Source: Bolinopsis microptera (lineage: Eukaryota > Ctenophora > Tentaculata > Lobata > Bolinopsidae). Taken from it: a stretch of 64,000 nucleotides of DNA. The DNA lies in NCBI RefSeq assembly GCF_026151205.1, contig NC_087082.1, positions 13,053,865-13,117,864 on the forward strand, in the 5' to 3' direction. The translations under genes and the position numbers were made by a program. Shown piece after piece: positions 6,342 to 64,000 of the stretch. Below the pieces are notes generated by a model, which was not told the DNA's origin, made no database searches, and saw only the letters and a program-made list of their open reading frames with translations. Every line of letters begins with the position of its first letter. The first letter of the stretch is position 1.

Positions 6342-9300
6342 GTATTGGTCCGAAAATAAGCTTCTTGTTAGAGTTTTACAGTATAATTTACTTGCGCTTA
6401 GTTAATGAGAGTGGGGTAACCAGGAAAATAGCAAATTTTAAGATACATAATAAAATCGTTATTACATATTATACAGTCATCTAGCGAACTAGAAATATTT
6501 TAGAACAGTTAAAACGTTAGAAATTAAACGAAGACCACGGGTATTACATTAAGATAAGAAACGTACATACGGATAACAATTAAATCTACAACCACTCTTA
6601 TAGCATGACATAATTGCAATTATAGAGTATGATTGACCTCCCGTGAAAATTATTAAGTAGTAGGCCGTAGAGGAGACGATTATCCATTGATGATTTCGCC
6701 CTGGCCAAAGGAGCAAAAATCCCAAAAGTGAATCAAATCGTCCCTTATTTGATATCATCTCTACCCCTACATCGTGAGCACTGACCACTATGTAAATAAC
6801 TTATAGCACTAACCAATGTGTTGTTATATTTATATGGTTTACTTGCGACTGACTTAAGTTATCCTATCTGTATTGCTGTCTTTAAAAAACGTTTGTCTAA
6901 CTCCGCTCCTTTGATCAGTCATCGGGCTTTTCAAGTATGTCTTATAAAATGTCATATTACCTAAACAAAGCTGCTGTTTCTCCGAAGATTATCTTCAGAT
7001 TTAATATCCATCTCCACCGTATTAACAACCTTTAAAAAACTCTTTTGTACCTTTGGGGTATTGTACCTTGCCAAAATGGAACCTCTTGACCCGGTGCTGA
7101 CATACAACGAGTTCCTTTTTATACCTCCACGTTTGAAGAAGATCTTCACTGCTCCCCTGAACTTCTCCATCCTACTGATGTAGATAAAAGGGTTGAGGGT
7201 GGCGTTCATTGACACACAGATCACATAGCAGACTGACCAGCTGTAATACTTGGAGAACGTGTCACCTCGTACGTTGAAGTTCTCGTAGATGTACAGAACC
7301 CAGATGATGAAAATAGGGAGGTTGAGGACAATGTAGGTCACCGTTATCAGGATAATAGTGATGGTTGCTTCCAGCTTCATGTTACGAACTGCACTGCTCA
7401 GAGTGGAGACTTTCAGCGAGGACAGCACACAGTAGCTTGATATGAAACAGCTAATGATGACGGGCACTATGGGGAATGCAAGCAGCACAGCCCCGTTAAA
7501 TATCTCCAAGTTGGAGTACCAACCCGACCTTGTACTCTCCCAACAGTACGTGTCCTCCGGGGTGTACACAAAATATCCGTACTTGAATATAATGGGAACA
7601 GTGGACCACAGCACTAAATAACCGATATAAACCGACACAAATATCACGACCCTCTTAGTTTTGATCTGTCTGAGTGGGGAGATGAGGGAAATGGTGCGGG
7701 TGATGCTGAGAACCGCCACCAGGAACACAGACATGAAGGGGATGATGGCCCAGAGGATACCCCACCCGTAACAGAAGATACTGTTACCGTACCACATGGG
7801 CTGGCGGTGGTTGAGGTAGGAGATAGCAGTGGGGAGGCAGGTGGAGCAGGACAGGATGTCAACTAGGGTGATCAAGATGTAGAGGATGGTGGGCAGATCT
7901 TTACGGTGGTTGTGGAAGTAACGCAGTGCTACTAGGTTACCTGAGTGGATATGTTGTGTTATTGTACACGCACTGGGTATATCAATAATTATAAACGCAG
8001 TTGTTGAATTTTAGCCAAATTTTAAATGTTTTTTGGAATCATTGGTCATGTCAAGTTTTGGTATTTGAAATTTATGGATAGACCCAAGCAAATATACAAA
8101 AATGTTTTGATTCATACGGAAAATAGTCAGCTATTCCAAGTATTAAAAAGTAAATTTAATAAAAATATTATCATACCTGCTACGCCGACAGTTGCACAGA
8201 ATATACAAACTGCAGCCAGAAAATAGTCTGCCTCTGTCGAGTGAGTGGATATTGACTCCATCTAAACAAGATAGGGTGGTTAAAACAGTAAGAAAACAGT
8301 AAGATGGAAGTGATAACTTCGTGTTATTATTTTATTGAGAGCTTAAAACACTTAGACTAAAAATAGCATTATTTTATGGACTTAGATAATATTATAAACC
8401 TTGCAGTCTCTGAATGCTTAAATTGCATGAGTAAATTATGAAGCATTTGATATTTTTTTCAAAAAATTTGCTGCTTATTAGAAAATAATCCAATACCGTA
8501 CTATAATATTATAGAGTTATAGTAGGAGCAAAAACTGGTGAATAACGATTTTAAGTGGAGAAATTGAAATATAAACTTGAAATAGCAAAGAAACACCTTA
8601 ATTTTTCGATTAGAGATTAAAAGTCGCTTTTGGCTCTGCTATTTATTTTAAAAGTGAAAAATGATACTAGATATCACGATTGTTTAATGTTTATGATCAT
8701 CAATAATTGACGGAAGACTTAATATCCAATAATTATAAGTAGTAAAGCAGACATGAGACGGGATTATTCTGAAGTTCCAAATTAGCACAATGCTGACATA
8801 TCTCATCAACACGACACTGTGAAAAATCGGAATAGTTATCTATAATAATAGATAATAAATAACATAGAATAGTTATCTATAATAATATGTCATAACATTC
8901 AATTCTATTAAATTATTTATGATAATGAATAATATAATACAATATCATCTATTATGATAGAAGTATAACATTGCTTTGATTTAATCTAAACAACAAAATT
9001 GAGAATAAAAAATCATCTAGTAACATAACTTAAATATATAGGTAATGCAGACTACAAGGTTAATCTGAATTAACGTAATGTCGACATATATCTTCAACAC
9101 AACACCGCCGGGATTACTAGTTATATAGTAACAAAGTCGTGCAGTGAGCCTGAAATTGCATATTAACCCTGCTCCACGTGGTACTATGGAATACAGAGAT
9201 TGTTCACGTGGTACTATGGAATATAGAGATTGTTCACGTGGTACTATGGAATTTAGACTTTGTATTTTCATATTATATCCAGAACGTTAGTCATAATATC

Positions 9301-27300: not shown

Positions 27301-30300
27301 TTATTATATAATTAATGATAACCCTTTCAGAAGAACCAAAGCTCGTTCCAATTAGACATCAAGAGTTTGATATCAGACGAGATATTCCATGACGAAGAGC
27401 TACAACAGGTCAGCAAAATTAATACTTGATAATATTTACTCACTGTATAACTATTGTGAACTTTGCAAGCATTAAATATATTATAAGAATTAAATATTAT
27501 TGGATACGTCTTGTAAAGTTTGTAATTTCTGAGTTTAATATCAGTTTTTAAGATTTTAAATTTTTAAGATCAAAATTCCCTCGAAATTGAATTTTTAGTT
27601 GTTTCTGATAGAAGGGAGTGATATCTATCAGATGCTTTTGGTCCCATGGAAAAATATTATTCCTAGCCAAAATTATTATCGGTCAAAGGTCAGCACTTAA
27701 GTGTAGTTGTATTGCGCAAGCGATTTTCAATCACGTGTCCTGAAAATCGAGTCTAAAATCTTCTCCTACATTTTTTGAGCAATCACCTTGAAAAGTTGAA
27801 ACTTTCAGGATATGTTCTAAGGACCATTTAGAAGATTCCATTCGATCAGAATTTTAAGATAGGCCTTTAGTTAGGGCAAGAGTTGATTTTTCTGTGAACA
27901 AATTCGTAACAAAGGTTTGTCTACTGGAATGTGTTGTCCATAGTCCCAGGAACCACAAAAAAAAACCGTCCAGCTGAAACTTTTGGGCAAAAATTTGTAT
28001 AGTCATTTTTCTCCAGGAACCCATACGCCCCACCCCTAATATTGGTTATTCGGCTCCCGAAGGTCTTGAGATCTCCATAGGGGGTGCAAAATGACCGCAA
28101 TGGCCACATTATGGCAGGCGAATGATAGTTTCAGAACAATTGGAGCTTTATTTTTCGAAATAAATGGAATTTTCGAAATTTTTCTCAATTTTATTGAAAT
28201 TTCGAAAAAAAATACACCAAATTATTTTTAACGCTTATTTCAAATCTTACTCGGGAAATAACTTCAATTTACAAATATCAAGGTTAACTAACAAACAACA
28301 GATTATTGACCAACCCCCAGACAGCTCTTCGACGGTACATACTACTCTGGTTGAATGTCTTAAGTTATCCTACAGTGAGCCGATGATAATCACATTCGAT
28401 TTTCCATTGTGGATTAAGGCCACCCGAATAGTACTGGAAACTGGGATGCCTATTGTGGTCAGGGTTGGGGGCTTCCACACTCTCACGAGTTTTCTTGGCT
28501 GCATAGGCTATATAATGGCAGACTCGGGTTTAGAGGAGCTCATCAAACTCGTGTATCCTGGAGACGTCACGCATATATCGGATGGAGGATCTTACTATAA
28601 AGCGTTGAGAGCCCACTTTCTGATCGACGCCGCTCTTTGTTGTTTCATTATAGAGGAAGAAGTTTACGACGATGAACTAGTAGACTTGGAAGGTTACATC
28701 AACAAATGTGTGAACGAAAATCTAGGTGTTAACTTTAAGACTAAATCTATTCAGGATCTATCAGAGAAAATAACTCTGCTTCTAAAGAACCTGTTTTCCA
28801 ACAGTAGAACAGCAGCTCTATGGGTTACTTACCACAACATGATAACACTAGTAAAGGACTTCATAAGAGCAGAGAGGTTGCACGACTACAATATGCATTT
28901 ATCAGCAGTAGCTTTGAAGCTGCCCTACTTCGCAGCAGCTGGGAGGGGACAGTATGCAAAAGCTTTAAGACTCATGTATTTGGAGCAGGATGTTATTTTT
29001 AAAGTCAAGTATGGGGCGTTTTTAAAGACCTTTAAAGTAACTGGGCTTCACACGGTTTGTTACAACGACCACGAGTGGGCCGGGGTGTGGACTGACCTCT
29101 CCATAGAGGGCAGCTAAATCTAGTGGTGGATTAACAAGTGGAAGGATGAGTAATCGTGAGTCCGCTCACAAGTTATGGGTGGCCACCCTGAATCAGATGG
29201 CTTTAATAAATCAGTCTTTTGGAGATTCATTAGCTAATTCATCGAAGCGAGGAGTACCAACTAAAGCTGCCATCCACTCAGATCTTACCAAGTCATCAAT
29301 CAAGAAAAACTGTGATGTATTTGGAAAATTATTAACTTGGTTTAAAGTTACTGTCGACTTTACAGAGTCCGAAGATAAGACTAAGTTAATATCTTTTTCG
29401 ACTGGTCTTATATCACAGCCTGGGAACGATGAGGTGAATCCCGAGGAATGTTTGGCCGTTGGGGCTGTCCTTCAACATGAGCTAGATGGGTTGACATTCA
29501 TCGATAAGATAAGTATCAAAGGTAAAGCAAAGAACTTGACACAACTAAGAAAGCAGGTTAAAGTGAATAATAAAAGCGTTGCAGTCGATCCGTTGAAGTG
29601 TTTTAACCGTCTAGTCTTGGTTGCTGATAGAGAGACTTCAATAGAGGAATGCCTAACATACGAGTTAACTGTGATGCCGATGAGCTTATTTGATCAATAT
29701 CAGATGATGAGGAAATCTAATAAGGCTGCTCTTGGTATTTATAAACCAATCTACACTTAAATCTTGCAGCTTCACGATCCCACTAGTCATTGATGGAGGT
29801 TGGCTAATTCACCAACTAAGCTCATTTAAAGGGTGTGACAATTATGGTGAGGTAGCAATGGAGTTCTTGAAGCTTATCCCTAAAAATCGGGATGTTACTG
29901 TGATTTTTGATGGATATGAGCCTTCTACTAAAGATCACGAGCACAAGAGGAGAGTAAAAGCGTTCTGTGCTAATATTGCTGTAAAGAAATCCACCTTTTG
30001 TACTGTCACCAAAACAACATTTCTGAGCAACAACAATAACAAAAAAGAACTGATCGACCTTATCTCAAGCATTTTTACTGTAAATGGTATTGAAGTGATC
30101 AGAGCTTGTAACGATGCTGATACTTTAATTGCAAAGAAAAGATTGGTAATGTCATTCCTTGGTGATGTTGAATTGAAGGCAGAGGATACCGATATAGTTC
30201 AAGTCTATTAGTACATCATTTCAACAGTGACCATCACAATGATATTTATCTAACAACGAAGAAGGGTACATATTCAATCAAAGAAATATCAAGTCATCTA

Positions 30301-33300
30301 GATCATAAAGAAAAGGAGATACTTCTTCTAATTCATAGTATTTCAGGTTGTGATAGCGTCAGTGGAGTGCAATGTTTGGTTTTAGCAAGGTTAAAGTGCT
30401 AAAGAAAGCTCTCGCCTTTGATGAGCAAGGTCAGTTGGCAACATTACTTTCGGTGAGAGAATCAAAAGAAAAGATTATTGAGGCAGGCCTCTGTTTCTTG
30501 CAGTACATTTATGGTGACAAAAAAAGACTCTTTCTGCTTTGAGATTCCTAGCATACAATAGGATGGTAGCGAAAAAGAGTCTCAATCCGAATAGGCTACC
30601 TCCAATAATAGCTTCAGCAACGGAGCACATCCTTAGAGCTTACTTACAGTACCATAACTGGGTCATGCTTAACGCTGACAGTCTGAATCCCCTTGACTAC
30701 GGCTGGAAATTGGCTTCTGGTGGCACTTACGAACCAGTTGCAACAAAAGCTATAATTGCTCCAGAGTCTATTTTGAACCTTATATGTTGTAACTGTTCTG
30801 TCGATGTGGAACAGGCCTGTTTGACTTTCAGATGTTCATGTAGGAAATATGGCTTCAATTGTTTGCCAGCTTGTGGACGATGCCATGGTATGAACTGCAC
30901 AAACATTAGACATGATGAACCTGAAGAACAAGCGAATTTTGATTAATATTAACTGTGTATTAATATTTGTCATGGTATTTACTGAGAATACACATTTTAG
31001 ATTAACTGTATTTGTTATTTGTAGATGAGTTTTTAAATAGATTTGAAATAAGCGTTAAAAATAATTTGGTGTATTTTTTTTCAAAATTTCAATAAAATTG
31101 AGAAAAATTTCGAAAAATTCCATTTATTTCGAAAAATAAAGCTCCAATCGTTCTGAAACTATCATTCGCCTGCCATAATGTGGCCATTGCGGTCATTTTG
31201 CACCCCCTATGGAGATCTCAAGACCTTCGGGAGCCGAATAACCAATATTAGGGGTGGGGCGTATGGGTTTCTGGAGAAAAATGACTATAAAAATTTTTGC
31301 CCAAAAGTTTCAGCTGGACGGTTTTTTTTGGTGGTTCCAGGGACTATGGACAACACATTCCTGTAGACAAACCTTTGTTACGAATTTGTTCACAGATTGA
31401 CCCATAAACAGCAATTCTTGCCCTAACTACTTAGAAAATTTTTTATTCGATTTTGAAAATCTTGGACCTCGTTTTTTGACGATTTTTCCAGGTCCAAGAT
31501 TTTCAAAATCGAATTAAAAATTTTCTAAGGCCTATCTTAAAATTCTGATCGAATGGAATCTTCTAAATGGTCCTTAGAACATATCCTGAAAGTTTCAAGG
31601 TGATTGCTCAAAAAATGTAGGAGAAGATAGAATTTTAGACTCGATTTTCAGGGCGCACGATTGAAAATCGCTCGCGCCATACAATTACACATGAACGCTG
31701 ACCTTTGACCGGCAATAAATTCGGCTAGGAACAATATTTTTCCATGGGACCTAAAAGCAGCAGATAGATATCACTCCCCTCTATGAGAAACAACTATAAA
31801 ATCAATTTCGAGAGAAATTTCATAAAGACCCCCCCCCCCCCCCCCCCCCCTGCCCCCTTAGCAACTTATCTTGCCACGAGTATCGCCAGTGCTGAAAAGC
31901 AACACGATGGGAGTCTGTAGAGTAAGAAATGAAAAAACTACTTTAACAATCTTATTTTATCTGAAGGCCCTCGACCGTTTCATTAGTGATAAAGTAATAA
32001 CGCTCTCGCATATTATGATGATATCAACCATTCGATACCTCGATGGTCTTCTAATCCGATTGCTTTCAAATACCCTGAAAAATATGTACTTAAAGCTAGA
32101 AAAGGAAATGCTCCATTTCGTACATATTGAAGCGAATACGTTTAAAAAGGCGCAAGAAACGCTTTTAACTTGCCAATGACTGGTTTAATCCTGAATCCGA
32201 AACTGAGCTTTTATTTGTGATTATTACCATGAAGTCATACCACTGACCGGAGACAAAGGCAGTATCCAAGAAGCCTTGCCCCGATTAAGGAGAAGGAGCA
32301 AAGTTAAAATTTTCTCTGGCGTCAGAAGCGGTCATATTCATAGGGTCGTATGCGGAGCTGAATATACGGTATATATAGGTCAACATGAACATTGAACATG
32401 TCAATTAATGTTAGTCGAAACTAACTGCATCCAAACTACACGATATCTGCTTACCATCACGTCATAAGTAGTCCGCGGACTGGGTTGGCTTTCTTGGATA
32501 CTGTCGAGACAAAATTATAATTCTTAGTGGGTAAAGTCAGTCGGAAATTGGTTAATTTTATATTAAGATTTCAGCTCTGGAACTTATAGCATGAAAAGTC
32601 AAATGTTTTCCCTCTAATCGGCTAGTGTAATACCTGCAACTGACAATAGCACTAAACCGTCTATGATATAAAAAGCGATTCTCCAGAAGAAATAAATTTC
32701 TTGAATTTCGTATAACTAATTTTACCAAAATACTTCTATTCATAAACCGCGAGTGAAAGGATAATTATTCTAATTAATATTTTATGTCGTCATAATTAAA
32801 AGCTGGCACAACCACCAGCTGTATCACGCAGAAAATACCTCGTACAACACAGGTACTGCTACGTCACAACATTTCACAGCTGAGTGAAATGTGACGAACA
32901 ACAAAAAACAACAAAATTAGGATTCATTAGCACTCTTATATATTTCAGTATGAAATGAAATGAAATAATGTGCTTGTATACCGCCCAAATGATTAGCAAC
33001 TTACACAATTGTACTAACCACGTCAGAGCGGTTCTAAAGGGTGAAAGATGCATTATAGACTTTAACTTAGTTATCCGTAACTTGAAAATTGAATGAACAA
33101 TGAAATGGAGTTACATTTCGTAATGCTGTAATGCAGTCGATTTGTAAGTTTTGCTATCAGCGGATAAGTTTTTAGCTAAATATGTTCCTGATAGAGTGAC
33201 AAGCTAATAGTGTAAATCTAAACAACAGCTGTTTCCACAATATTAGGTGTATATTGGATGAGTCCCGCCCTATTTGATCGTTCAACCAAACCTATGAAAA

Positions 33301-36300: not shown

Positions 36301-39300
36301 ACCTTATGAACGTCACTTTATTTTCTATTACAGGTGCACAACGTGTTACTACGTCACATCTCAGATCTGAGGAAGATTTACAATCACTACTGCAAACTTG
36401 CAGACCAGGAAAGCGGAATCCTCGCAAGAATGGAGGTTTGATCTTTATCTTATATTAATTACTGCTTTTCTTATTATATTATCAGTTTTCTTTATTATAT
36501 AACAATATAACTTATTATATAACTTACCTCTCACTTAAGCTGCGTATTTTTATTAACTTTTGCGACTTTGTCACTCTTAAAAGCATCTGAATAGAAACAT
36601 GTATTCCTTGAAAGAGCGAGATATTCTCTAATACAAAATTAATTCCTTAGGTTCTATAAAAGCTTAAAAATCTTGGAACAAAATACAAATATCGAGTCAA
36701 AAGCATAAAAGCATGAAAAAATCAAATTAGGCAAAATTAGTCGCTTGTCGAACAGCTCAGGAACATGTATTTTGATCACTCTGTAAAAGTTCACATACAA
36801 AAATAACGACTGAATGGAATTTCATGACTGAAAGAGGATCCAAGACGAAATTTCTTCAATTCTTTGGTGTTTAATTGGTCAATATTTTGTCGCTTCGGTA
36901 TGTAATCAGAAGACAGCAAGCGGTATAAATTATGATTTGAATTGACTTCTTTTTTTTTGTAATAGAAAATTAATTAGGCGTGGGTATTGGATTGTCTTAA
37001 AATTAGGATCTTAAACGCCTAGGCATAAAACCCCGACGGACAATAAAACCCCGAAGGACAATCATTGCGCAAAGATAAAGATCAAATAGGAACTAATGAG
37101 TAATACTAATGACCAATCGGTATCTCTTCTAAGATAATATTTATTAAAAATAATACATTGTTAGAGAAATTGCTAGATCTAGCATAGAAGTCATAGAGAT
37201 CATTCTGTAGAAGTTCATATTATATACAATATCTGTATCGACTGAATACTTACTTGTACTTTATCGACTGAATGAAATATTTAATATAATTTCATTAGTG
37301 GAAGTAGAAAAAAGAGAACTTGGGAGTCGGAACTGGAAGTTCTACAATTCTGCGGATCTAAGGGCCCATGCTTGTGCAGGAGCTGCATTTGCACTCAATA
37401 TCTGTGTTTTGGTGACCCGAAGTTAACCATAACCCTTACCACAAGCCTAACCCTAACCCGGGCCCTAAACAATCGAATTCGTATTTTACTAGCCTGTCAA
37501 GTGACCAAAACGGTTTTTTGCCCATAACTCTCCAGGGAAGCATTTTAACCCTACGTCATGGGGGGTGATTCGGAATCAGCGTCCAAAAATACACCGATAT
37601 ATAACAGTATCACTTTCATGCCCCAAAGGGCCTTTTCACAAGAATTTCCTTAAAATTTGGGCGAGCGATTTAGTAGAAGCGGTAGAAAAGCGATCATAAG
37701 CGCCTATAAGCGCTTTTAAATCCTGATTCTGCCGGTGACCCCAGGTTGCACAGAAAAGCACTTATAACTATAAGCAGGCACACTGATTTCCAGTTCTGAC
37801 CAGGTTAAGGGGAATTGAGAAATCGCTTATAAGCGCAGCATTAAAAAAGCGCTTTTTAATTCCGGGCACTCCCCCGTTCCGACCAGGTTAGTGGTAGCAT
37901 TGAAAAAGCGCTTATAAGCGCTTTTTAATTCCGGGCACTCCCCCGTTCCGAACAGGTTAGTGGCAGCATTGAAAAAGCGCTTATAAGCGCTTTCTAATTC
38001 TTGCCAACCAGGCCATGGGTGATAGGAAAAGCGGTAGAAAAGCGATCATAAGCGCTTTTAAATCCTGACTCTGCCGTGTACCCCAGGTTGCTCAGAAAAG
38101 CACTTATAAGCGGGCACTTTGATTTCCAGTTCCGACCAGGTTAGGGGCAGCATTTAAAAAGCGCTTATGAGCGCTTTTTAATTCCGGGCACTCCCCCGTT
38201 CCGACCAGGTTAGTGGCAGCATTGAAAAAGCGCTTATAAGCGCTTTCTAATTCTTGCCAACCAGGCCATGGGTGATAGGAAAAGCGGTAGAAAAGCGATC
38301 ATAAGCGCTTTTAAATCCTGATTCTGCCGGTGACCCCAGGTTGCACAGAAAAGCACTTATAACTATAAGCGGGCACACTGATTTCCAGTTCTGACCAGGT
38401 TAAGGGGAATTGAGAAATCGCTTATAAGCGCAGCATTAAAAAGCGCTAATGAGCGCTTTTTAATTCCGGGCACTCCCCCGTTCCGACCAGGTTAGTGGCA
38501 GCATTGAAAAAGCGCTTATAAGCGCTTTCTAATTCTTGCCAACCAGGCCATGGGTGATAGGAAAAGCGGTAGAAAAGCGATCATAAGCGCTTTTAAATCC
38601 TGACTCTGCCGTGTACCCCAGGTTGCTCAGAAAAGCACTTATAAGCGGGCACTCTGATTTCCAGTTCCGACCAGGTTAGGGGCAGCATTTAAAAAGCGCT
38701 TATGAGCGCTTTTTAATTCCGGGCACTCCCCCGTTCCGACCAGGTTAGTGGTAGCATTGAAAAAGCGCTTATAAGCGCTTTTTAATTCCGGGCACACCCC
38801 TGTTCCGAACAGGTTAGGGGCAGCATTGAAAAAACGCTTATAAGCGCTTTATAATTCTTGCCAACCAGGCTAGAAAAAGCGGTAGAAAAGCGATCATAAG
38901 CGCCTATAAGCGCTTTTAAATCCTGACTCTGCCGGTGCACCCCAGGTTGCTCAGAAAAGCACATGCAAGTGGGCACTCTCCAGTTCCGACCAGGTTAAGG
39001 GGAATTGAGAAATCGCTTATAAGCGCTTTTAAATTCCGGGCACCACCCCGTTCCGACCAGGTTAGGGGCGGCATTGAAAAAGCGCTTATAAGCTCTTTTA
39101 AATTCCGGGCACACCCCCGTTCCGACCAGCTAAGGGGCAGCATTGAAAAACGCTTATAAGCGCTTTATAATTCTTGCCAACCCATGCCATGGGTGATAGT
39201 AAAAGTGGTAGAAAAGCGATCATAAGCGCCTATAAGCGCTTTTAAATCCTGACTCTGCCGGTGCACCCCAGGTTGCTCAGAAAAGCACATGAAAGTTCCA

Positions 39301-42300
39301 ACCAGGTTAAGGGGAATTGAGAAATCGCTTATAAGCGCTTTTAAATTCCGGGCACTACCCCGTTCCGACCAGGCTAGGGGCAGCATCGAAAAAGCGCTTA
39401 TAAGCGCTTTTTAATTCCTGCTCGCCTGGCCATGGATGATAGGAAAAGCGGTAAAAGCGGTGAAATAGCGATGAATTAGCCGTAATAAGCGATTTCTAAA
39501 AAAACGCTTATAATCGATTATAAGCGGTTATAAGATGTAATATAGCGTTTTCCTGACTCAATTTTAAAAGCGCTTATAAGCGCTTTATTTGCGCTTTACA
39601 AACAGCTAAATTGCACCCTAATTATAAGCGCTTATAATCGCTTATAAATGGTTCAAAAAAGCGCCCACGAATCGCTTATCCGGCCAACCGCTTATCCACC
39701 CGTTCTTGGCGCCAATCCTACTGGAAAACCGCTTTCAAATCGCTCAGCAACGCTAGTAAGCGCTTAAAAGCGCTTATAAGCGCTTTTAAATTCAAAAAAG
39801 CGCTTTTTTGAATTATGACACCAATTATAGTCGATTATAAGCGATTTTTTTTTAACCGTTTATAATCGTAAAAAAAGCGATTGTAAACGGTTTTTTTTTT
39901 AAAAAGCGCCGAAAAAGCGCTCAATAAGCGATTATCGTCGCCGATCATAAAATATCGTTTATGGAAACTTGCCGACAATCCATGCTTAGAGGACAATATT
40001 ATATTTAACTAATTCATTGTGTATATTTAACTAATTCATTGTGTAAACTTGTATATATATATATGTAAACTTTGTATGTAATTGACTGATTTGAAAGATT
40101 TCAATAAAAAATAAAAAAAATTGGTCAATATGTTGAGTTTAATCAGAGGAGAGCATTCAGTGTTACTATTAGAATATGAAATTAAATTGGCACTTTCGTT
40201 GAAGTAAAATTGATTAACCAATAACCATGGTTAATGGTTATTTATAATAAACTAAGGACAATAATACATAAAGGATAAAATTCAAATGACAGGTCTATCA
40301 TAGACCTGTCATTTGAATTTTATCCTTAATACGTCTTCTCAGAAAACTTTTGAAAATATATTAAACAAAGATATTTTAATAATTAATGAAATTATTTATT
40401 AAATAAAAATCCCACGACCTACTGTACGATAACTTAACCATGTTAAAATTAACATCTGACAACCTTTTCAGTTCTGGAAGTTTGTCAAAGACACGAAGAT
40501 TTATCTCAAGCTTTCCATGCCGCTTGCTGACTCCGTTATATGTAAGTTCTTTAAAAAGTTAATAGTCAAACGAGTCAAGTACGTGACTGACGGTTTGACA
40601 GGTTTCTAAATACAAAACAAAGAGTTTAAATCCTATTCTATCAACTTATCAAGAGGTGCGGTAGTGATATAGGAAGATTGCTGACGAACACTAAGACTTA
40701 AAATCCGCAGACTTACGCTTAATTAAACACTAGATCTCCGGGCTTTATTTCAACTAATTTGATTATCTTTAATAACATGAAACATGGGCGACAGGAAATT
40801 TGGCTCAGGAAATTTGACTCTTTTATAACCGTACGAACAAAACAGCGCTTAGAAATAAACCTCATCTATTATAAGTTAAGAGGCAAGGAGGCGTGTGACT
40901 TTCTGATATATATATATCAAACCAGATCATTAGACACAGTGATGTTTCTGGAAAATTCCGACTGGCGTTTATCGTTAAAAGGTTAAACACTTCAATATGC
41001 CAGCTATGATTGCTATAAAATGGCCTGCCAAAGATGTCAAATATCAGATACCATTTAATAGAGTCATTGGTTTTTAAATGAAACGCGCATGACATTTATC
41101 TTTGTTGTTCTGATAATGGTTGAAAGTAATCAAAAAATTGCTCACAGCAGCCCATTTGAAACTTCCATTAATCCGATCATTATCTTAAATGGTCATATAT
41201 AAGATAAAATAACGTTTGAACAAGACTTGAATCAAGAAAATCTGTCTAAACGTTCAGTGCCTGTTCAATAATTTCATTCTGTTTTACCGAGAATAACTTT
41301 GCCATAAACACAACACTTTTTCAGCTGACTCGCTGGAATTGGAATGTGAAACAGAAAGAGAATCTCCCTTCACGAAGTTCTTGTTCAGAGAGTTCCTACA
41401 GGCTGTAGTGTTCTTGGCTGTCTACATCTACCAGGATCAGGTCACGCGGTATGCCGTTTGTGTCGCGTTTCTTTTGATCACGTGACAGAGAAGTTGTTTG
41501 TATATGATCACAATTAATCATAGTTGCCATTCAATCGAGACACAACAAAGCTTTATCATAACCTTAATTATCACTCCTATCTACAATATTACAGCACATC
41601 GTGACCCAGGATTGTACAGGGACTATTATTATTATCATTACATTGGGACTAACAAGAATTTTATAACCTCATGAGATGAAATAACTTCATATTTTGCAAA
41701 TATTAATGTCATTGCGGCATAAGCGGCAAACCTTATCTGCAGATCTGTTATAAATCATCAACTCTCTTGAAATTTTTGTATACTAATAATAATTTAAAAT
41801 GACTAAATCAGTAAATTGAATGTTGCAACTGGCAATGAGCGTTAATTCCAATAGAAGGGTATCACATGCTTCATCATCTCATGACGTAACGCTTTATACG
41901 TTGGAACTAGACAAGAACAATACAATTTATACAAATCACCTAATTTCGGAACCTGTTACCTTCAATTTAACACTAGCTGCAAACTTGAAGATAGTTCGTT
42001 GAACTCTCCTCATTAATTTGTCTGGCAAAGGACACAAAAGACAGTAAAATAACCGTTATATATTAACTAAAGTCTGGAATGCACCATAGCCTTCTTAACA
42101 CAAGAGAGTCTGAGCCATGGTAGCAGCTACTCAACAACTAGTCTCTAAATTAAAACAGCCGGCTAACTCACTAAAGTAGTCGTCTGAAACTCTGAGAGAC
42201 TCTGATCACCCAACCTTTTGTATGGCTAAAGCCTAAAAATATGACGTATTTAGGACGTAATCTATCCTCTTCTCCTTTGAGTGGAACTCTTCTTTTCCAT

Positions 42301-50382: not shown

Positions 50383-53379
50383 TTGTATACATACATACAT
50401 GTTACATGGTAAGGTCTCCTCCTAGTCGTTGGAGTGGCCTGCATCACACACATCGCGTTGGCGGCGTAACATATGTCTCCACTGTACTCGGTTGGTAGCC
50501 AAAGCTTCTGTTGTGTCGTTGTCGATGTTTTCAACACCTGTAAACTTAGCAGCATCTTCGAGTACGCAGGACTTCCAGTTCTTACGGGGTCTGCCCCTTG
50601 ACCTCTTTCCATAATTTGGCTTCCAGTTCAACAGAAACCTCGGTAGTCTAGAGTCTGGCATTCTAACTACATGTCCATACCAACGTAGCCTGGCAGCACT
50701 GATGAAAGTCTCAACTGACTTGATGCCAGCCCTCCTAAGAACTTCGTCGTTGGTCACATGAAAGAACCATTTAATCCTAAGGATCCTTCTCAAGGAGGTT
50801 TGGTGGAAAACCTCGAAGCGTTTCATCTGCTTTTTGGTGGTGTTCCAGACTTCAGCTCCATACAACAAGATGGTGAGGACAGCAGCCCTATAGATCCTGA
50901 TCTTGGTTCGAGTCTTTATAGTTCTGCTATTCCAAATGTTCCAGAGCTGATGAAAGGCGCCATTAGCCTTCTGGATACGGACATCCAGGTCTCTGTTGAT
51001 TGTCCCATCCCCACTGATAGTTGCACCCAGGTAGACAAAGTTGCTAACCTGCTCGACGGGTTCACCCTCAACCGACAGCTCAATACAATCATCCTTGATG
51101 AAAGGTCGCTGGGAGGCGCACTTGCTTACAGCCATGCATTGGGTCTTCTCTGCATTTATTCTGAGCCCAGCGTAGGAGCTGTAATGAACTAATAGATCAG
51201 TTGACTCCTGTAGGCCTTCCCCTGAGTTGTCCATAATAGCCATGTCATCGGCATAATCGGTGTCCAGAATGACCTTTTCCTCGACCGTCTTCATCTCTTT
51301 CTGCAGCACTGCGCCTTGACTGATGATCTTGTTGGTCTCAGCCAGAAATGCAGAAAAGTTTAGGCAGAAATTAAAGACAGGAGGTGCTTGAATGTCACCC
51401 TGACCTGTGCCTGAGTTAACATCAAACCAGTCTGTCAGCTCCCCATTAACCCTCACGGCACTCATGGTACCCCCAAAAAATGACTGAAATATTCTGACAT
51501 ATTTTTCAGGCAGCCCATAGTGTCTCATACTGCACCAAATAAAGTCCCTTCTGATAGAATCAAACGCTGCCTTGAAATCGACAAAATTAATGTAAAGAGG
51601 AATGTTAAACTCAAGACAGTTATGAATAATAGTTCGGAGAGAATAAATCTGATCAATACATGAGCGGTTCTGTCTAAATCCGCACTGATTCTCCCTGAGA
51701 AGACACTCCATACCAGCATGCAACCGCTTAAGAAGAATCATCTGAAAAAGCTTGGATGCTGTAGACCTTAAGGTGATCCCTCTGTTGTTCCCGCAGACTG
51801 AAGTGTCTCCTTTCTTCCCAATAACAATGATCACACCCTTTAACCAATCTTCAGGAACAGTCTCTTCTTCCCACACTTTCTTGAATAGACACTCTAGTTG
51901 ATCAACTAGAGCACTCGCACCATACTTCAGTTGCTCGTTAGTTATCCCGTCCACTCCTGGGCTTTTGTTGTTCTTAAGCTTTGTCAGGGAATAACTAATC
52001 TCGTCTCTGGTGGGTGGTCCATCCGAACAAGAGAGAGAGTTAAAGTGGGGTTGGGGTGGTACTGTATCAAGGTCGGCAAGGTCGACACTTGATAATGGAG
52101 GGTTCAGAAGTTCAGTAAAGTGCTCCTTCCACCTATCCCTCTGCTGTTGGGGATCCGTGATCTTCCTACCGTCCTTGTCCCGGACACAAGATGCTTGAGG
52201 CTTCTTGTTCTTACCAGAGATCTTCTTGATCTTTGCCCATACCTCACGCTGCTGACCTTTGCTCGCTGCTTCCTCAAGATCAGTAGCTACTCTAACTGCC
52301 CAGTTATTGTCGTCTAGCTTGCTGCTTTTCTTGACTAACTTATTAAGTTTAGAATACTCTGACCTGTTAGCGTCCGAGTTTGGGTCTTTGCGCTTAAACT
52401 GTGCCCGCTGAATCAATAAATCCTTGGTCTTCCGTGACAGGTGTTGCTCCTTTGCCTTCCGGGGTCTTTTGCCTAGTACCTCTAGTGAGACATCAGTGAC
52501 GGTCTGACTGATATTACGCCACATATCCTCGAGGTTGACCTCATTATCCAGACTTGCAAATCGATTTTGAAGAGCCACATTGTACTCTGTAACCGTAGTA
52601 CTATCCCTCAGGCGCTCAATGGCAGGCACATTGGGCCTGTTGGCGTTGATCTTTGTCACTGACTGAAGTTTGATTTTCAGCAGTCCTAGAACCAGATAAT
52701 GATCGGAACCGATGTCTGCCCCGCGACATACCCTAACATCAAAAAGTGACTGACGAAACCGCTTTCCAATGCGGATATGATCTATCTGATTGACGGTGAG
52801 CCCGTTGGGGGACCGCCATGTTCCCTTGTGAATGTTCTTGTGCTCGAAGAGAGTTCCCCCGATGACAAGCTGGTTCGTCGCACAGAAATCCACAAGTCTT
52901 GTCCCGTTGTCATTTGATGAGCTGTGGAGTGATTCCCCACCGATGACCGCTTCACTTCCATATCTGCCTGATGTTACTTTTGCATTAAAATCGCCGAGCA
53001 GTAACTTGATATCGTGACGAGGTAGCCCATCAAATGTATCTGTGAGTGTCCTATAAAACTTATCTTTCTCACTCTCCTCTGCACCCTCAGTTGGAGCATA
53101 GGCCACAACAACAGAGATGTTGATTTGCTTACTATGCAGCCTAGCAGTTAAAACCCGCTCCGATGTGGGAGTGAACGATATCAGGGAGTTTCTGATTCGT
53201 TTTGAAAGACTGAGACCGACTCCCTGTCTCTTGATCCCGTCGACTCTACCGGAATGGATGAGTAGACTGCCATTGTCCAGTAGAGTGGTGCCAGATCCAG
53301 GCATGTGAGTCTCGGTGATCCCCAAAAGATCTAATCTGTACTGATCAATGTTTTGACTAAGTTGGTTGTATACATACAT
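50383..53379 (-). mobile_element. RTE-like LINE insertion with probable target-site duplication
   Basis: The sequence TTGTATACATACAT occurs at 50383-50396 and again at 53366-53379, flanking the ORF. If it is the target duplication, the element body is about 50397-53365 and the first few codons of the open frame (MYVYN) come from flanking DNA. The 3' end (low-coordinate side) runs into ATGTATGTATGTAT-type simple repeat, as RTE elements often do in place of poly(A). No 5' UTR is present. The target site is itself a short TACA repeat, so the duplication call is moderate. Confidence 0.7.
50422..53379 (-). CDS. LINE ORF: AP endonuclease + reverse transcriptase (RTE-like)
   Basis: 985 codons open without interruption. 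Residues 1-235 are an AP-type endonuclease: GITETHMPG (about 21-29), VVAYAPTEG (91-99), LLLGDFNAKV (126-135), QIDHIRIG (198-205) and GSDHYLVLG (224-232). Residues about 465-800 are reverse transcriptase: CGFRQNRSCIDQIYSLR, FVDFKAAFDS (599-608), GTGQGDIQAPP (657-667) and YADDMAIM (709-716). The C-terminus has LRWYGHVVRMPDSRLP and GRPRKNW, typical of RTE-related elements. The usual N-terminal WNVRT strand of the endonuclease is absent, so the copy is slightly 5'-truncated. The uninterrupted frame suggests a young insertion. It lies convergent to and about 250 bp beyond the RSPH10B stop. Confidence 0.92.
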   Translation of the reverse strand: MYVYNQLSQNIDQYRLDLLGITETHMPGSGTTLLDNGSLLIHSGRVDGIKRQGVGLSLSKRIRNSLISFTPTSERVLTARLHSKQINISVVVAYAPTEGAEESEKDKFYRTLTDTFDGLPRHDIKLLLGDFNAKVTSGRYGSEAVIGGESLHSSSNDNGTRLVDFCATNQLVIGGTLFEHKNIHKGTWRSPNGLTVNQIDHIRIGKRFRQSLFDVRVCRGADIGSDHYLVLGLLKIKLQSVTKINANRPNVPAIERLRDSTTVTEYNVALQNRFASLDNEVNLEDMWRNISQTVTDVSLEVLGKRPRKAKEQHLSRKTKDLLIQRAQFKRKDPNSDANRSEYSKLNKLVKKSSKLDDNNWAVRVATDLEEAASKGQQREVWAKIKKISGKNKKPQASCVRDKDGRKITDPQQQRDRWKEHFTELLNPPLSSVDLADLDTVPPQPHFNSLSCSDGPPTRDEISYSLTKLKNNKSPGVDGITNEQLKYGASALVDQLECLFKKVWEEETVPEDWLKGVIIVIGKKGDTSVCGNNRGITLRSTASKLFQMILLKRLHAGMECLLRENQCGFRQNRSCIDQIYSLRTIIHNCLEFNIPLYINFVDFKAAFDSIRRDFIWCSMRHYGLPEKYVRIFQSFFGGTMSAVRVNGELTDWFDVNSGTGQGDIQAPPVFNFCLNFSAFLAETNKIISQGAVLQKEMKTVEEKVILDTDYADDMAIMDNSGEGLQESTDLLVHYSSYAGLRINAEKTQCMAVSKCASQRPFIKDDCIELSVEGEPVEQVSNFVYLGATISGDGTINRDLDVRIQKANGAFHQLWNIWNSRTIKTRTKIRIYRAAVLTILLYGAEVWNTTKKQMKRFEVFHQTSLRRILRIKWFFHVTNDEVLRRAGIKSVETFISAARLRWYGHVVRMPDSRLPRFLLNWKPNYGKRSRGRPRKNWKSCVLEDAAKFTGVENIDNDTTEALATNRVQWRHMLRRQRDVCDAGHSND

Positions 53380-53924
53380 GATATAAGTCCTAAAACCAAG
53401 ATCAGATGACCTGTCATGTAGTCAATGCAGTAATTCGAAAGAAATTTGATCATGATGTCAGAGTGTAATTAATTGTAAATGATTTCGGCACTGCTCAATT
53501 TTGTTTAGAATGTTTTGTTTCTGGTGTCTAATATAAAGGTATATATGATATAACAAAATTCTGTTCAAATTCAATACTACTACTACTACTAGTCTATGTA
53601 ATAATATAAGTAGGTAGTGCGCCATCAACAGTGAGCCGCGCGTGCACCGACTGTATAGGATGATTTTTGGCATAATTCATAATTATATAGCTACATTAAC
53701 AAGGTAACACATTATAATTTACTTGGTGGCGCTCAGCCTGTCATTCCACCGAATCTTTATGTTTTATGAACATAATAGCCTGGGGTCTCCAGCTAGGTAA
53801 ATTATAATGTAATAATATAAAACCTGTAATATTGAATATGTATAATGAAAAGTTGATATTGAATATGTATAATGAAAAGTTGATAATTGACGATGTCAAA
53901 TTGTCAACCCTCCCAGATATTGTC

Positions 53925-63300: not shown

Positions 63301-64000
63301 ATAACACTGCTATAAACTTATCATTTTCTGTGATGTAAACGAGGGAGGGGGGATGACTGAATCACAAACATATCCTGATTTATCCCAAAACTTTCTTCCG
63401 TATGAGACAATTTGATATTAAACAAGAAATCAAATTGTCAGTATAAATGATAGGTCAGGAATTTGATTAGTAACTCAGGAGTTTGATTAGTAACTCAGGA
63501 GTTTGATTAGTTACTCAGGAGTTTGATTAGTTACTCAGGAGTTTGATTAGTTACTCAGGAGTTTGATTAGTTACTCAGGAGTTTGATTAGTAACTCAGGA
63601 GTTTGATTATTTACTCAGGAGTTTGATTAGTTACTCAGGAGTTTGATTAGTTACTCAGGAGTTTGATTAGTTACTCAGGAGTTTGATTAGTTACTCAGGA
63701 GTTTGATTAGTTACTCAGGAGTTTGATTAGTTACTCAGGAGTTTGATTAGTTACTCAGCAATATGATTAGCAAAAATATCAGCACTGCTACTAATATAAC
63801 TGAAGTTGCATAATATTTTTAATAATACCTATTACTTTACAATTTACATGTCATACATAGCGAAGCTTTTATGATTTTGAGAATACACCTCAATGTATAC
63901 CTCCCAGGGAGTGCCTCCCTGTTAAGCTGTTGTTGCAGTTTTAAACTTAATTTTAATTTAGAATATGAAGGGTATATCTCACTTGTTTCAGGTATGAATT
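57398..64000 (+). CDS. Unidentified multi-exon gene, 5' part, runs off the window
   Basis: Exons in phase: 57398(or 57394)-57492, 57790-57838, 58236-58370, 63215-63296 and a start at 63992. The peptide begins MEECESKIKDVFVSFFKECG, continues NHGPYNPKTSIACCYMKC, then NEEAIKESYSYVKETHNMLL, FGTPVEKLVLK, VLTAEALLLIAVMKMAVKR and HYLKAGMN. Each boundary has a good GT/AG: GG|G makes Gly across intron 1, CTC AAA|GTC across intron 3 and G|GT across intron 4. The composition is helical and soluble, resembling an alpha-solenoid, but I do not recognise the family. The first ATG at 57398 may be the start codon or internal, since an AG acceptor lies just upstream (57393). The missing 3' part should identify it. 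Confidence 0.6.
58553..59282. mobile_element. Mariner-type non-autonomous element (730 bp)
   Basis: TA at 58551-58552 and 59283-59284. Perfect 34 bp TIRs beginning CAGGGTGGGCCAAAAGTCAG and ending CGTTGG. The interior has no transposase; its short open frames are not recognised. Lies in intron 3 of the right-hand gene. Confidence 0.92.
59283..60180. other. Intron of the right-hand gene, no gene
   Basis: AT-rich with no recognised coding or repeat structure. Confidence 0.45.
60186..60335 (+). repeat. GC-rich dispersed repeat fragment with poly-G
   Basis: GGCACGTAGCCAGGATTTTT followed by about 18 G and then GGGGGCGCAGCC-type units. I recall this CGTAGCCAGG-poly-G signature from repeats in many invertebrate genomes, probably ends of DNA transposons. 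Only one end is visible here. Confidence 0.55.
60585..61766 (-). pseudogene. Class A GPCR pseudogene, antisense in an intron of the right-hand gene
   Basis: Minus-strand segments in successive frames give a seven-TM receptor in the right order. Segment 61766-61515 has the N-terminus and the start of TM1 (LMTLTTANVLLSICCIVL). Segment 61555-61223 has TM1-TM3 (GLSVIMAYFRVKTH, QNGLADFFVGLG, GVVRYIQIVRPLHR). Segment 61191-60898 has TM4-TM5. Segment 60911-60585 has TM6-TM7. Frame changes fall in TM1 (about 61530), in loop 2 just after RPLHRIN (about 61225) and in loop 3 (about 60905). DRY is VRY and the TM7 NPxxY is degraded (ILTPLTLLL). Three frame breaks plus decayed motifs argue for a dead gene rather than one with tiny introns. 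It lies in the 4.8 kb third intron of the unidentified gene, on the opposite strand. Confidence 0.75.
61983..62785. mobile_element. hAT-like non-autonomous element, 803 bp, 8 bp target duplication
   Basis: Flanked by CTTTAAAC at 61975-61982 and 62786-62793. TIRs CAGGCTTGTCCGCCG and CGGCGGACAAGCCTG, exact inverses. Subterminal GGCGGCGGCG repeats at both ends contrast with the AT-rich middle. No transposase. Confidence 0.92.
63461..63760 (+). repeat. 15 x 20 bp minisatellite
   Basis: Fifteen head-to-tail copies of GTTTGATTAGTTACTCAGGA, with a few TTA/TAA differences at the same position. Near-identity implies recent expansion. Located in the intron before the exon at 63992. Confidence 0.97.

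Follow-up and report, generated by a model that had tools for sequence, protein, structure and literature searches.

The 64,000-nucleotide stretch of Bolinopsis microptera DNA analyzed here (the window; assembly GCF_026151205.1, contig NC_087082.1, positions 13,053,865 to 13,117,864 of the forward strand) contained a transposon copy, element A, which is very probably a decayed, internally shortened copy of an Academ-type DNA transposon, resembling AcademX and moving by cut and paste. Element A is nested in an unrelated miniature inverted-repeat transposable element (MITE), element B. The two elements, with the terminal inverted repeats (TIRs) and target site duplication (TSD) of element A, were located in the window as follows.

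27868..31429, forward strand: element A, probably an Academ-like DNA transposon copy, 3,562 bp, placed by its termini, TIRs and TSD
27868..28247, forward strand: left TIR of element A, beginning TAGTTAGGGCAAG
31039..31429, reverse strand: right TIR of element A, ending CTTGCCCTAACTA
27865..27867, no strand: left TSD, CTT
31430..31432, no strand: right TSD, CTT
27569..27867, forward strand: left arm of element B, the outer hairpin MITE, outside the transposon
31430..31823, reverse strand: centre and right arm of element B, the true end lying further out, beyond a poly-C

The inverted repeat of the window was resolved into several arm pairs, which formed two nested elements, the inner element A and the outer element B. 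The termini of element A were TAGTTAGGG, and TAGTTAGGGCAAG was found at both ends (27868 and 31429) with CTT outside each. The TIRs were ~380–391 bp long by repeat analysis and local alignment; the alignment contained 394 identities, 13 mismatches and 18 gap columns, and ran slightly past the TIR. A preliminary description had given the transposon TIRs of about 675 bp and ends at 27575 and 31824. Both were wrong because the two nested elements had been merged: the outer arms belong to the separate hairpin MITE, and the true ends of element A are 27868 and 31429. The same description had called the copy dead, and dead it is, its protein being broken over six overlapping frames; relatives were open for 706, 650 and 1,342 codons. 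The 5' coding part of a full-length relative (C7:12447076-12454769; 7,694 bp, with TIRs of ~370 bp at 98% identity and the TSD AAC) was missing from the window copy. Seven copies were ~94–98% identical to the window copy over the main aligned blocks.

The outer arm pair of element B was formed by 27569–27867 with 31527–31823. A palindrome with 40-bp arms (31430–31529) continued the inner edge of the outer set and was absent from the left side, which is the arrangement that insertion of element A just before the palindrome would produce. When the genome of the window (264.65 Mb, 232 contigs) was searched with 27569–27867, 81 matches were obtained and the best 40 candidates were scored; among these best 40, nine complete hairpins had full-length arm pairs 94 bp apart. 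An 80-bp empty-site probe, in which 40 bp of the left flank and 40 bp of the right were joined with one CTT, was compared with nine fetched MITE loci; as L049 and L051 were the same place, these represented eight independent loci. Over the full 80 bp, the probe was 100% identical to L049/L051 and L045 and 98.75% identical to L048. The other five loci were matched at 90–92% over 61 bp, with differences beside the insertion site. The empty MITE copies carried a single CTT, and therefore element A had inserted into hairpin B and duplicated the CTT.

Searching the same genome with the TIR gave 42 matches, of which the best 40 candidates were scored. Among the matches listed, all except the window's own started at a query position of at least 287, the element end being at 294. 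TIRs were found around other copies of the same protein, so that the proposed link between protein and TIRs held, with TIRs other than the 675-bp ones described. A single composite element with 675-bp TIRs would account for both arm sets standing in the same order on each side. However, the outer arms occurred as stand-alone hairpins, the joined flanks matched empty hairpins at full identity, and the other copies of element A ended at the same TAGTTAGGG with different flanks. The composite element was refuted by the empty-site comparison and is almost certainly not the explanation.

A 3-bp TSD was present in 26/26 copies with both ends fetched, comprising 11 pairs that were compared, 10 read by eye from the flanks, four more, and the full-length copy. 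This count is of fetched copies, with many listed copies outside it, and excludes the one-ended L002, L004, L007, L008, L021, L025 and L037 and the second tandem copy in L041. The chance of a 3-base match was ~0.018 per copy under assumed base frequencies. The triplets were AT-rich, with T in the first position in 16 of the 26; L034, L035, L036 and L039 carried ATA, TAC, TTA and TAT, respectively, and in L032 the match stretched to five bases within a TA run. Short derivatives of 1.7 kb (L005) and 0.94 kb (L061/L062) shared the ends of element A, which is expected of copies moved in trans.

The TIRs of L034, L035 and L036 were ~0.65, 1.1 and 0.84 kb long, compared with 370 bp in the full-length copy. 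Those of L035 and L036 extended into the 3' coding part, and L034 had an extra 748-bp inverted repeat beyond the element ends. The idea that the 3' end had been duplicated in inverted orientation to form the TIRs was dropped, the full-length copy having TIRs of ~370 bp at both ends. Element B was an abundant long-hairpin MITE with arms of ~300 bp and the ends GGGGGCAGGGG in other copies; its window copy (27569–27867, 31430–31850) was degraded at the left end and had a long poly-C close to the right one. TTAA stood on both sides of the hairpin ends in L045, L048 and L049/L051, which suggests a mobilizer of the piggyBac or Kolobok type, types that prefer TTAA targets.

The protein of element A was read in the window from the following open frames.

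28164..29117, forward strand: DDE-like region (ITFD ... ERLHD ... SIE), the first 84 bp inside the TIR
29107..29760, forward strand: frame between the DDE-like and FEN-like regions
29711..30211, forward strand: N part of the FEN/XPG-like nuclease region (VIDGG, FDGY, DAD, EDTD), the first ~10 residues out of frame
30172..30402, forward strand: C part of the FEN-like region (SGCDSVSG)
30357..30542, forward strand: continuation past the GCD motif
30518..30946, forward strand: C-terminal part, including the cysteine-rich tail of CXC type

The motifs named from the window copy in the preliminary description (VIDGG, FDGYEP, ADTLIA, EDTDI, GCDSVSG and a CxC cluster) were all found in these frames, and the cysteine-rich cluster was indeed present at the C terminus. 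The full-length copy contained a 1,342-codon open frame (C7:12447645-12451670), in which an N-terminal part, the DDE-like region, the FEN/XPG-like domain and the CXC-type tail followed one another. Copies of the window clade matched this frame only from about residue 406–470 onward and therefore lacked the first ~400–450 residues. With residues 1–400 as the query, the full stretch was found only in the full-length copy, and the other 10 of 11 matches were partial. Frames upstream of the 1,342-residue frame may be first exons. In the distant families L038, L063 and L064 of the same genome, FEN-like, GCD and cysteine-rich parts were arranged in the same order, and L038 and L064 additionally carried parts of the DDE-like region. 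The CXC-type tails of two related families gave sub-threshold preSET_CXC matches (E 0.026 and 0.12), which are weak hints only. One distant relative was present as two identical open copies of 564 codons, L038 (C6:4309035-4310726) and C6:4429730-4431421, separated by 120 kb.

The assignment of the nuclease-like domain to FEN/XPG, already suggested in the preliminary description, is good but distant. In an alignment of four relatives (A2), 31–58% identical to the first, seven acidic positions were invariant (D98, D139, D207, D209, D231, D233 and D285), as were the G and D of the GCD/GSD motif. The acids of A2 aligned with those of exonuclease 1 from D139 on, the first position, D98, lying outside the compared segment. 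An hhalign comparison of these relatives with exonuclease 1, RAD2, XPG and the host XPG gave a score of 56.1 and a probability of 93.5% over 174 columns, whereas column-shuffled controls reached a maximum of 20.3 (299 usable of 300); with exonuclease 1 alone the score was 44.9. The transposon domain shared with exonuclease 1, FEN1 and XPG the order and spacing of the catalytic acids and a GCD motif ahead of a G-x-G stretch. It differed from them in its very distant sequence (20% over 174 columns), to which the Pfam XPG_I model was blind, and in being fused to a region resembling a transposase and to a tail rich in cysteine. For the third frame, in which a FEN/PIN domain had been expected, no Pfam FEN/PIN match was obtained, and the support came from the profile–profile comparison of relatives. 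A 5'-3' exonuclease model of NCBIfam matched with E 0.017, a weak hint only; no Pfam or NCBIfam match was above the curated cut-off, and no PHROGs match was below E 0.05. For prokaryotic or viral relatives, the single-protein scan of viral contigs gave no pattern match, and A2 gave 42 pattern matches in viral contigs and 40 in genome contigs, none of which was confirmed. Degenerate copies of the FEN-like region with identical scores were seen on several chromosomes (C10:7561593-7674192, C12:1376431-1439732 and C13:15331201-15430339, and also C5, C6, C8 and C11), in opposite orientation ~13.4–13.6 kb apart, as if within a larger multi-copy repeat.

The FEN-like domain had been described as the only nuclease-like domain of the protein. 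This was not confirmed: a separate conserved region upstream of it, kept between families, carried candidate DDE-type acids (D481, D643 and E716 in the numbering of the 1,342-residue protein). Of these positions, L038 covered the first two and L064 the third alone; the dead copy L030 had N at the first. An AlphaFold single-sequence model of the region was unusable (predicted local distance difference test score, pLDDT, 39). Between the two main clades (L029 versus L031 and L030), the proportion of synonymous differences (pS) was 0.78–0.86, near saturation, and that of nonsynonymous differences (pN) was 0.20–0.24 in the DDE-like part, the FEN part and the first 96 codons after FEN. Selection preserved all three parts, the nuclease included, during clade divergence, and the purifying selection between clades was strong in the DDE-like and FEN-like parts. 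The selection analysis was confined to these three parts.

The AcademX nuclease is regarded as XPG-like; literature searches for Academ together with XPG found no statement of an XPG-like Academ nuclease in the available portions of the sources. The superfamily of element A is most likely already named; the comparison with Academ was made through published descriptions. In the available parts of the cited papers, Academ is listed among the DDD/E superfamilies (PMC9587614), and its two lineages are AcademX, with a nuclease and TSDs of 3 or 4 bp, and AcademH, with a helicase and TSDs of 9 or 10 bp, a TSD difference which the author related to the nuclease and helicase (PMC10045372). The constant 3-bp TSD of the element A family lies within the AcademX range and differs from that of AcademH, a lineage of the same superfamily. 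Like AcademX, the element combines a nuclease, here the distantly similar FEN-like domain in the 1,342-residue frame, with a putative transposase region and TIRs. No helicase was matched by Pfam in the 1,342-residue frame and two upstream frames, a scan that left out ~2 kb on the 5' side of the 7,694-bp element. Bivalve Academ elements have a mean length of 5,565 bp, according to the part of that report available (PMC10294476). KolobokE, D and P likewise join a DDD/E transposase to an added nuclease, but their nucleases are described, in the accessible text, as lambda exonuclease-like, DEDDh and His-Me finger (PMC9587614).

Several observations weigh against an AcademX-like element with both a DDE-type transposase and a FEN-like nuclease. 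The Academ assignment was made by comparison with published descriptions of the superfamily. The putative DDE triad D481/D643/E716 was proposed from few sequences, and no Pfam transposase model matched the frames scanned; the first frame, examined for a known DDE superfamily, gave candidate DDE-type acids and no Pfam DDE match. Within the second clade (L029 versus L036) dN/dS, the ratio of nonsynonymous to synonymous substitution rates, was 0.57, so that constraint was weak there. For the FEN-like domain, hhalign without exonuclease 1 gave a score of 24.5 and a probability of 4%, a value without shuffles of its own, the 299 belonging to the full comparison. A PDB profile search with E up to 10 returned four weak matches, none significant alone: the best (E 0.29) was to a carbon storage regulator, an unrelated protein, and the other three (E 0.44–1.2) were versions of one protein, exonuclease 1, two of which aligned through FDG, EAD, EDSD and SGCD. 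No Pfam XPG model matched the single proteins scanned, and a genome scan with PF00867 (XPG_I) found six other places and no transposon copy. An AlphaFold single-sequence model of the FEN fragment (pLDDT 45) led Foldseek to an RNase H-like resolvase, a terminase and others, not to FEN; taken literally this speaks against the FEN reading, but the model was too poor to weigh.

The preliminary description had proposed an unnamed superfamily with a structure-specific nuclease, and a new superfamily in which a FEN-like nuclease stands in place of a DDE transposase would agree with the missing Pfam DDE match in the frames scanned and with the FEN-like residues being the best conserved catalytic set. 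However, the region with D481, D643 and E716 was constrained as strongly as the FEN part, and a constant short TSD at varied sites, here of 3 bp, fits staggered DDE strand transfer. The element also fits a kind already described, Academ being classed as DDD/E and AcademX as carrying a nuclease in the parts of those papers available (PMC9587614, PMC10045372). A new superfamily of this type is therefore very improbable. The CXC-like cysteine cluster at the C terminus would be in line with membership of a different superfamily in which cysteine-rich motifs occur, for instance the KDZ group (Zisupton, Dileera and Kyakuja), with which CXC motifs are associated. Such membership is contradicted by TSD length, 3 bp here as against 8 bp in Zisupton and Dileera and 7 bp in Kyakuja, which has no TIRs, as given in the accessible part of the source (PMC12730594), and we regard it as very improbable.

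For an AcademX-like element A, we infer a division of labour among the DDE-like, FEN-like and CXC parts, whose arrangement and, for the first two, selection were observed. The DDE-like region would cut the ends and perform strand transfer, staggered by 3 bp. The FEN-like domain may trim or open branched DNA at transposon ends, target joints or repair gaps, and the CXC-type tail would bind DNA. Short copies like that of the window, without the N-terminal part, were probably moved by proteins from fuller copies. The FEN-like domain could instead be a core transposition enzyme of a two-nuclease protein, and not an accessory, cutting flaps or branched joints at the ends and helping to set the 3-bp stagger; this is conceivable and rather unlikely.

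The find is informative and mostly ordinary. A protein family unnamed by Pfam is now tied to exact transposon ends, a TSD length and a domain order in one genome, and the open full-length copy together with the empty sites makes it possible to test what a FEN-like nuclease does in transposition. The window also illustrates how repeats nested in one another can pass for very long TIRs.

Elsewhere in the window, a 999-codon open frame on the reverse strand (50422–53421) resembled by eye a non-LTR retrotransposon endonuclease/reverse transcriptase, and a 349-codon open frame on the same strand (6961–8010) resembled by eye a seven-helix receptor. Tandem arrays were present at 63455–63770 (a 20-bp unit in 15.8 copies with 96% matches) and at 37847–39418 (based on 69 bp).

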